A stretch of DNA of 58,397 bases. Origin: Sneathiellales bacterium. Lineage in GTDB: Bacteria; Pseudomonadota; Alphaproteobacteria; JANQFL01. Each line of letters opens with the position of its first letter. Within the stretch, counting starts at the first letter, position 1. Made by a program: the position numbers and the translations under genes. The notes beneath the pieces are model-generated. The model was not told the origin of the DNA and made no database searches. It saw only the letters and a list, made by a program, of their open reading frames with translations. The stretch is from NCBI GenBank assembly GCA_028277845.1, contig JANQFL010000014.1, positions 1 to 58,397 of the forward strand, given 5' to 3'. Below, piece after piece: positions 639 to 4,191 of this stretch.

Positions 639-1001
639 ATGAACGACAAAAACGAGCCCAACGAGGCGGAATCGGACAACGCGGCCGCGGCCGCCAGGCG
701 CTTTATCGATCTCTGGCAGGACCAGATCGGCGCCTTGGCGGACGACCAGTTTCTTTCGGAAGCCCTGGAAAGTATGCTGCGCTCGCTGTCCGGCAAGCGG
801 ATCGCAGGGCGCGACGGCGCGGAATCGAACAATGACGGCGACACAGACGGCAAAGACGCGGACGGCAACGGCAGAGGACGCGATCTGGCGCCAGGGGCCG
901 AGACCGCTGGCCCTGCACCTGGCCACGACATGGAGCTCGCTGATGAGCTCCGTCGCCGCATTGCCGAGTGCCAGAGCCGGATTGCTGCCCTGGAGTCCTG
1001 A
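639..1001 (+). CDS. Small acidic protein overlapping phaC, possible synthase partner
   Basis: This 120-residue reading frame starts at ATG 639 and overlaps the start of the phaC-like gene by 170 bases in another frame. The N-terminal half (ARRFIDLWQDQIGALADDQF, then LSEALESMLRSL) looks like an amphipathic helical region. The middle is a low-complexity Asp/Gly/Asn linker. The last 23 residues (ELADELRRRIAECQSRIAAL) form a short coiled coil. This layout recalls the small PhaE/PhaR subunits of class III and IV PHA synthases, which also end in a coiled coil, but no family signature is definite. Its place directly before and within a short PhaC-like gene supports a partner role by context. It could instead be an uncharacterised phasin-like protein. 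Confidence 0.6.
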   Translation: MNDKNEPNEAESDNAAAAARRFIDLWQDQIGALADDQFLSEALESMLRSLSGKRIAGRDGAESNNDGDTDGKDADGNGRGRDLAPGAETAGPAPGHDMELADELRRRIAECQSRIAALES

Positions 1002-2217: not shown

Positions 2218-3396
<1,179 letters not shown>

Positions 3397-3468: not shown

Positions 3469-4191
3469 ATGTCACGCGTAGCAATCGTTACCGGAGGCAC
3501 GCGCGGTATCGGCGCGGCGATCTCCATCGCACTTAAGGAACAGGGACGTACGGTCGCCGCCAACTACGGCGGCAATGACGAAGCGGCCAACAAGTTCAAG
3601 GACGAAACCGGCATTGCCGTCTACAAGTGGGACGTCGGTGACTTTCAGGCCTGTCAGGACGGTATCGCCCGGGTCGAGGCCGACCTGGGGCCGGTGGACA
3701 TCGTCGTCAACAACGCCGGCGTCACCCGCGACGCCACCCTGCACCGCATGAAGCCGGAGCAATGGGACGATGTCATCCGCATCGACCTGACGTCGTGCTT
3801 CAACATGTGCCGCAATGTCATCGAGGGCATGCGCAGCCGGGGCTTCGGCCGCATCGTCAATATCTCCTCGATCAACGGCCAGAAAGGCCAGCTCGGCCAG
3901 ACCAACTACTCGGCCGCCAAGGCGGGCATGATCGGCTTCACCAAGGCGCTGGCCCAGGAAGGCGCGGCCAAGGGCATCACCGTCAACGCCGTGGCGCCGG
4001 GTTATATCGACACGGAAATGGTACAGGCGGTGCCGGAAGAAATCCGTAACAAGATCATCGCGACCATCCCGGTGGGACGGCTGGGCATGGCCGAGGAAAT
4101 CGCCGGCGCGGTCGCCTATCTTTCGGCGGACGAGGCCGGCTTCGTCACCGGATCGACCCTGACCATCAACGGCGGCCAATACATCGCCTAG
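3469..4191 (+). CDS. phaB: Acetoacetyl-CoA reductase
   Basis: NADPH-dependent short-chain dehydrogenase that makes (R)-3-hydroxybutyryl-CoA, the monomer for PhaC. The 240-residue protein opens with the nucleotide-binding motif VTGGTRGIG. NNAGVTRD follows, then the catalytic Ser of NISSINGQKGQLGQ and the YSAAK Tyr/Lys pair. GQLGQTNYSAAKAGM is typical of PhaB rather than FabG. GYIDTEMV and the TINGGQYIA end also fit. A strong terminator at 4236-4266 closes the phaAB unit. Confidence 0.96.
   Translation: MSRVAIVTGGTRGIGAAISIALKEQGRTVAANYGGNDEAANKFKDETGIAVYKWDVGDFQACQDGIARVEADLGPVDIVVNNAGVTRDATLHRMKPEQWDDVIRIDLTSCFNMCRNVIEGMRSRGFGRIVNISSINGQKGQLGQTNYSAAKAGMIGFTKALAQEGAAKGITVNAVAPGYIDTEMVQAVPEEIRNKIIATIPVGRLGMAEEIAGAVAYLSADEAGFVTGSTLTINGGQYIA

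Follow-up and report, generated by a model that had tools for sequence, protein, structure and literature searches.

We describe here a small gene that lies at positions 639–1001 of a 58,397-nt stretch of DNA (hereafter the window; contig JANQFL010000014.1 of the Sneathiellales bacterium assembly GCA_028277845.1) and shares its end, out of frame, with the beginning of phaC, a gene for a divergent polyhydroxyalkanoate (PHA) synthase-like protein. That this overlapping gene is real seems to us next to certain. Comparisons of sequences indicate that the frames of the small gene and of phaC are both under purifying selection, and that the small gene is old and widespread in Alphaproteobacteria. 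By analogy with known enzymes, its product probably serves a divergent two-component PHA synthase as accessory subunit. The features that bear on the two frames are:

639–1001, + strand: small gene; ATG start, 120 codons and a stop, product of 120 amino acids (aa), 12.8 kDa, isoelectric point 4.4
832–2088, + strand: phaC-like gene; 418 codons, 418 aa, divergent class III-like PHA synthase
832–1001, + strand: overlap of the two reading frames, 170 bp; phaC is read at +1 relative to the small frame
663–794, + strand: N-terminal module (N-module) of the small protein; two predicted helices (residues 9–34 and 37–52), motif LArRflDLWqdQ..A.A.D; from AlphaFold2 and conservation
795–923, + strand: low-complexity linker, residues 53–95, probably disordered; no helix, block pLDDT (predicted local distance difference test) of 45–68 in AlphaFold2
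924–995, + strand: predicted C-terminal coiled-coil helix, residues 96–119, entirely within the overlap; from AlphaFold2 and the profile score against recodings
604–632, + strand: sigma-70-like promoter TTGGCG-N17-TATACT; the only promoter-like site in 400–2260
895–906, + strand: GPRP motif of PhaC, residues 22–25, within the overlap; conserved

A preliminary description of this DNA had pointed out the 120-codon frame, its start in the gap between phaR and phaC, the 170-bp out-of-frame overlap, and a coiled-coil C-terminus, and all four hold; the last is in keeping with a single confident AlphaFold2 helix (residues 96–119, block pLDDT 94–96). Its placement of the gene directly before phaC is right as to adjacency but understated, as the gene ends inside phaC in 79 of 80 related loci. 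ORF (open reading frame) inspection of the window showed ATG 832 to be the earliest start codon in the PhaC frame, hence the out-of-frame sharing of 170 bp; third codon positions of PhaC are there the first positions of the small-ORF codons.

Synonymous-site constraint in the overlap, which the preliminary description had proposed looking for among relatives, was found. In 17 disjoint pairs of relatives (74–97% identical), the four-fold degenerate phaC sites differ at 85/475 positions (0.179) in the overlap vs. 1036/3198 (0.324) in the rest of phaC, with the overlap rate lower in 15 of the 17 pairs (Fisher p = 3.7e-11, Wilcoxon p = 0.0003); a looser-motif version of the test gave 0.187 vs. 0.320 (14/17 pairs). 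Two controls were flat, which argues against a general 5'-end effect: the next phaC stretch of approximately equal length (0.324 vs. 0.325, lower in 9/17 pairs) and the beginning of the thiolase gene (0.240 vs. 0.229, 5/10 pairs). Outside the overlap, the N-module changed 88 times at first, 53 times at second and 231 times at third codon positions (17 pairs); amino acids differ at 122/823 sites and four-fold sites at 134/408. The C-terminal peptide has a median profile score of 42.8 bits in the real sequences vs. 7.5 in synonymous recodings, and at 71 of 75 loci it outscores every one of 60 recodings; rows of the profile itself (window, L055, L078) were excluded here.

The openness of the small frame is the weakest of these signs of selection, with the fixed-length version mildly in favor. 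Over the observed stretches all 75 small frames are open vs. 43.1/75 expected (median open probability 0.63 under recoding), a figure that is partly circular, as the tested stretches end at the observed stop. Over a fixed 130 nt from GPRP, 75 of 78 loci have an open small frame vs. 66% under recoding, and the other alternative frame in 1/78 vs. 16%. Since 66% of recodings stay open, base composition favors the small frame.

The distribution of the gene was followed at two scales. A first search covered 57 other genomes, related at class level only; in seven relatives, each of a different family, the small ORF precedes this PhaC and runs into it. A PhaC profile was then run against a species-genome collection and the best 80 of at least 592 stretches (at least 533 confirmed) were taken; these are the PhaC genes nearest to that of the window and include Azospirillum, Thalassospira, Paramagnetospirillum, Terasakiella, Skermanella, and Pelagibius (L055 and L078 share genomes with rows of the small-protein profile). 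All 80 have the small ORF; at 79 of them it overlaps phaC, each time in one and the same frame. A frame broken in close relatives, which the preliminary description had named as evidence against the gene, was thus seen at one locus (L064, 2798–2995, same contig as L183), where the N-module is kept and a stop precedes the overlap; the other 79 are intact. With the PhaC start set at its likeliest position, the overlap measures 143–308 bp, with a median of 209, across 78 loci, including the window and leaving out L064 and two loci unmatched by the motif pattern (L060, L104).

Across 385 genomes of the class Alphaproteobacteria, PhaC of this kind was detected in 151 (E ≤ 1e-90) and a small-protein profile match in 134 (E ≤ 0.001). 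When 150 PhaC places were compared with 150 small-protein matches (130 genomes) among the matches listed, at least 121 of the PhaC places had a small ORF upstream on the same strand, in an identical frame in all 121, and the matched regions overlapped directly in 113 of these; eight genomes of this sample contributed rows to both profiles. The top 30 matches of a small-protein profile built without PhaC all overlap this PhaC (22 new, eight being the profile's own rows). Among plasmids, the small ORF occurs in Azospirillum brasilense MTCC4039 p4 (E = 1e-24) and Azospirillum sp. TSH58 p04 (E = 3e-25); neither record lists a gene between phaR and the synthase in the PLSDB tables, which are incomplete, and RefSeq names the synthase "alpha/beta fold hydrolase." The phbCAB operon described on plasmid 4 of A. 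baldaniorum Sp245, formerly A. brasilense (PMC10383645), fits the present locus. One record titled Solirubrobacterales (L107, CAJCJG010000299.1) carries the overlap, a divergent phaR and a downstream thiolase gene; it is probably a misbinned contig, or a case of transfer.

The gene neighborhood is largely shared: phaR is divergent in 79 of the 80 loci, a thiolase gene lies downstream in 60 and a reductase gene in 51, some contigs ending early. In the window, the neighbors are:

3–446, − strand, truncated at the edge of the window and with its start codon somewhere in 446–521: divergent phaR, encoding a PHA synthesis repressor; TIGR01848 match above cut-off (E = 8.8e-46)
2221–3396, + strand: phaA, acetyl-CoA C-acetyltransferase; thiolase families
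3469–4191, + strand: phaB, acetoacetyl-CoA reductase; TIGR01829 E = 2.9e-109, above cut-off

We found that the site TTGGCG-17-TATACT, for which 0.2 occurrences were expected in 400–2260, ends 6 nt before ATG 639 and that its −10 box starts 12 nt before this codon, which would place transcription start at or next to the ATG. A TATANT box recurs 11–15 nt before the small start at 53 of the 81 loci compared, the window among them, where shuffling predicts 0.125; small start codons were assigned by rule, as the closest ATG upstream of the W motif or, failing that, a GTG or TTG. Shine-Dalgarno-like motifs were seen in none of these 53 loci and in seven of the 81 overall. These signals suggest a leaderless mRNA beginning with the small gene. 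Ahead of a possible PhaC start, a Shine-Dalgarno-like motif is found in 23 of 78 loci. We set aside a programmed frameshift that would fuse both frames, since start codons exist for each of them and selection acts on the small one in the overlap.

The small proteins of relatives range from 94 to 278 aa (median 144 in the 80-locus set, L064 left out). The N-terminal W motif is kept in 80/80 loci and a basic C-terminal tail (net charge of at least +4 in the last 20 residues) in 59/80; the window protein has no such tail (four Lys/Arg, four Asp/Glu). In seven Thalassospira loci (L097, L101, L110, L111, L113–L115) the protein reaches 255–278 aa, roughly double the norm; its long middle is rich in Met, Ala and Lys, and its ends are of the usual kind. 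The AlphaFold2 model of the window protein has a mean pLDDT of 73.5 and a predicted template modeling score of 0.31; Foldseek returned one match for it (E = 8.6), which is no proof of a new fold. No family in Pfam or NCBIfam matched the window protein at E ≤ 1, nor did any PDB sequence. For the 80 members, the matches (69 Pfam and 44 NCBIfam families) were mostly generic coiled coils or scattered and low-scoring; the commonest, DUF7310, itself a coiled-coil region, was matched by 37/80 members (best E = 0.00012), and PhaE models are not among the 25 most-matched families listed.

As for the partner enzyme, its structural model supports a PHA synthase fold, and its sequence carries a Cys-Asp-His triad. 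The best NCBIfam model is class III PhaC (TIGR01836, E = 1.2e-46), with 159.4 bits against a curated cut-off of 365.3, which is thus not reached. The AlphaFold2 model (pLDDT 92.4) has PHA synthases as its seven top PDB structural matches (Z 28.0–31.6, 286–365 residues aligned), followed by lysosomal and gastric lipases (Z 26.4 and lower). The triad residues are:

1459–1461, + strand: catalytic Cys210 (GYCMGG); invariant in eight and in 55 sequences
1921–1923, + strand: catalytic Asp364; invariant in eight and in 55 sequences
2002–2004, + strand: catalytic His391 (GHIGM); invariant in eight and in 55 sequences

The eight PhaC sequences were found through the small protein, and the loci of the 55-sequence set partly by patterns that included GYCMGG, so that the invariance of Cys in the latter is partly due to selection; the catalytic role of Cys210 is taken from known PHA synthases. 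P23, P25 and H29, like EDWxN, are invariant in the eight-sequence alignment; conservation of the former three in the 55-sequence set is partly by construction, its rows having been trimmed with a P.P..H pattern. The overlap encodes PhaC residues 1–56, and the conserved GPRP motif together with a confident AlphaFold2 helix (residues 26–48) makes it very probable that PhaC is translated through it.

We base the accessory-subunit reading on PhaC being short, having class III as its best match and being tied to one small helical protein, and on similar short PhaE/PhaR-like proteins preceding PhaC in other Alphaproteobacteria; the profile link of coiled coil and tail to those proteins, the lack of a PF09712 match in the source genome and four genomes that retain the N-module after losing the coiled coil (all below) also count for it. 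In the mechanism that we propose, the mRNA would start at the ATG of the small gene, so that the small protein would be made first, and PhaC would be initiated internally, approximately 50–100 codons before the end of the small gene, tying the synthesis of both together. The N-terminal two-helix module would bind PhaC, and the coiled coil would join several small subunits, with catalytic subunits, into an active oligomer, as class III/IV enzymes do with PhaE/PhaR. The basic tail of most relatives, absent from the window protein, would probably contact DNA, the surface of the granule or some other protein of the granule.

A number of points weigh against this reading. The fixed frame alone proves little, given that the small frame is open by composition in the recodings mentioned. 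The 29 PhaC places without a listed small-protein match comprise one that starts at a contig edge and 28 that were examined with a larger profile and sorted by hand from their frames. Eight of the 28 have a full overlapping ORF, three a shortened overlapping ORF without a clear coiled coil (one at E = 0.018), four the N-module only, ending before the PhaC match (one being the L064 contig), and two lie at contig edges; at the remaining 11 no small ORF was detectable with the larger profile. Among the 150 PhaC genomes, the small ORF was thus undetected in 11 and is shortened in seven. Natural truncations at L185, L187, and L202 (small-ORF frames 1342–1579, 1195–1504 and 1289–1502, phaC strand) have lost the coiled coil; the four genomes that keep the N-module alone suggest that this module is the essential part. 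Moreover, the source genome encodes a full class I PHA synthase (TIGR01838, 790 bits; C19:37785–39380, − strand, L121), so the window synthase need not be the main one.

Other such points come from Rhodospirillum rubrum, whose PhaC1 we place in this PhaC family from two primer-derived peptides and consecutive locus tags only: its quantitative PCR primers (PMC9999600) translate to VEDWLN and PLANIR, which fit family motifs, and the tags of PhaR (Rru_A0276) and PhaC1 (Rru_A0275) are consecutive, Rru_A0278 being given instead as the cluster regulator in PMC11268599. The primer sequences had no match in the sets of five and 17 genomes searched. An earlier study reportedly found PhaC1 more active than PhaC2; if PhaC1 was assayed without the small protein, this argues against an absolute requirement for it. 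The gene is described in a phaC1-phaA-phaB operon and its product as approximately 14–18% identical to the other two synthases, as read from figures, enzymatically active and a significant contributor to PHA when overexpressed (PMC4026134), whereas its transcript was reported as undetectable in three tested conditions (PMC9999600). Whichever of the three synthases was overexpressed, PhaC1 by more than 50-fold, PHA rose only 1.25- to 1.8-fold (PMC4026134); a missing partner could explain this modest gain, and so could many other things.

The remaining points concern homology, and not all of them weigh against the reading. Class III and IV synthases combine a short PhaC with PhaE (20–40 kDa) or PhaR (22 kDa), and PhaE is needed for polymerisation (PMC6403647). 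Upstream of other alphaproteobacterial PhaC genes we found eight short PhaE/PhaR-like proteins of 115–140 aa (L157:1440–1784, L158:1586–1942, L159:1687–2067, L160:1694–2071, and L161–L164), of which the PF09712 model reached four, two of those below cut-off. Profile comparison linked the N-module neither to this set (0.7%) nor, with its hidden Markov model run against 808 ORFs, to any other protein at significance (best non-self match a short PhaR-like protein, E = 0.043). Against 28 PhaE, hhalign gave 25% and a score of 32.0 vs. 26% and 32.1 for reversed PhaE; the 32.0 is still above 60 shuffles (at most 24.2) and was not used as evidence. Coiled coils inflate profile scores. The match to PhaE of an earlier eight-row small-protein alignment (8.7%) fell in an unrelated region. 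The N-[LM]-P-[ST]-R motif, a pattern drawn in this analysis, occurs in 0/80 small proteins vs. 24/28 PhaE, and the N[LMI]PS[RK]-type motif in 0/80 vs. 8/8 short PhaR-like proteins. PF09712, which matched in 54 of 299 genomes and in none of 14 control genomes, had no match in the source genome. Searches for solved structures of PhaE or of short PhaR-like proteins returned weak coiled-coil and unrelated chains only. Two PhaE proteins, L126:1465–2529 and L142:1129–2424, begin with SDFEALARQYFGAWGD and GDFEAMARQFWNLWGD, respectively, and strikingly resemble the N-terminus of the small family; the profile test was not significant. We infer that the small protein works like PhaE or PhaR, homology to either being unproven. 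Of the earlier suggestion of an unrecognised PhaE/PhaR equivalent, the part that stands is a conserved coding gene tied to a short PhaC with an intact triad; the PhaE/PhaR role is by analogy, with the N-module unlinked and the motif missing from all 80 proteins.

It is somewhat unlikely that the small protein is a true distant homolog, i.e., a reduced PhaE that lost the NLPS/TR motif, which is a question of origin and compatible with the subunit reading. Such descent agrees with the 77% hhalign match between the short PhaR-like set and the coiled coil plus tail (score 36.6; no more than 16.3 in 60 column shuffles, 18.6 with the alignment reversed) and with the look-alike stretch SDFEALARQYFGAW at the start of PhaE in L126; it is opposed by the N-module profile, which reaches significance with neither PhaE nor the short PhaR-like proteins, and by a PhaE comparison no better than reversed PhaE. 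We hold it less probable still that the protein is a PhaM- or phasin-like granule or nucleoid-anchoring factor, its N-module binding PhaC or the granule and its basic tail DNA or the granule, that tunes granule number and segregation rather than catalysis. The basic tails in 59/80, the position among pha genes and the match of one of the 80 members to the granule-protein model TIGR01837 (E = 0.0012) would suit such a factor, yet the window protein has neither basic tail nor phasin family match, and the tie to one PhaC subfamily and its coding sequence points to the enzyme. A small ORF serving mainly as a translational control element that sets PhaC initiation, with a peptide of little use, is highly improbable: initiation of PhaC within it and the scarcity of Shine-Dalgarno-like sequences (23/78) suit coupling, while the N-module evolves as a protein outside the overlap (88/53/231; 122/823 vs. 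134/408) and the W motif is kept in 80/80. Finally, a chance ORF without a product, which GC-rich DNA would leave open in 66% of recodings over 130 nt and in 63% (median) over full stretches, is refuted for practical purposes by the constraint confined to the overlap, a peptide conserved beyond recoding, protein-like change outside the overlap, and the promoter signature.

Returning to the subunit reading, we tentatively put forward a fifth kind of PHA synthase, composed of a class III-like PhaC with a GPRP extension and an obligatory partner that arose independently of PhaE/PhaR, partly by overprinting; this we regard as possible rather than likely. The partner's coiled coil and the N-terminal helix of PhaC would then be read from shared DNA in two frames of a leaderless message, and this kind would cover many Alphaproteobacteria (Azospirillum, Thalassospira, Magnetospirillum and, by inference, R. 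rubrum through PhaC1). If true, enzymes of this kind tested without the partner were tested incomplete. Should the small protein be a partner subunit, work on bioplastic producers may have cloned, deleted or overexpressed their phaCAB operons with the second gene missing or damaged; any phaC deletion that takes away the start of phaC truncates the coiled coil of the small gene as well. No report of a gene overlapping phaC in these bacteria was found among the top-ranked matches in the open-access literature, most subscription papers lying outside the search. Few long bacterial gene overlaps are described as fully established (PMC9927249), and this long same-strand overlap, being old, widespread and directly testable, would offer a clean case for overprinting and for leaderless translation of a subunit pair.

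Compared with known systems, the small protein resembles PhaE (PF09712, TIGR01834) in a gene adjoining a short PhaC, a helical build, a C-terminal coiled coil and, in many members, a Lys/Arg/Ala-rich tail. It differs in size (12.8 kDa in the window vs. 20–40 kDa, PMC6403647), in matching no PhaE model, in lacking the NLPT/SR motif and in a gene that overlaps phaC by a median of approximately 200 bp. With class IV PhaR, for which the short alphaproteobacterial set rather than Bacillus PhaR was compared, it has in common a length of 115–140 aa, a position upstream of PhaC, an N-terminal helical part, a coiled coil and a basic Pro/Lys/Arg tail; it differs in lacking the motif that all eight short PhaR-like proteins carry, and the profile link is confined to the C-terminus. 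PhaM and phasins, which are granule proteins, are likewise small helical products of pha operons, and a basic tail occurs in most relatives of the small protein; the window protein, however, has no phasin family match, is encoded in an overlapping frame and is tied to one PhaC subfamily. In turn, the window PhaC shares the Cys-Asp-His triad and the alpha/beta-hydrolase fold with class III PhaC (TIGR01836), yet position 66 of that model corresponds to residue 133 of the window protein, which leaves approximately 67 extra N-terminal residues, including the GPRP segment encoded in the overlap. Two-component PHA synthases are themselves already known; it is the overlap of the small gene with phaC that is unusual, and it is conserved.
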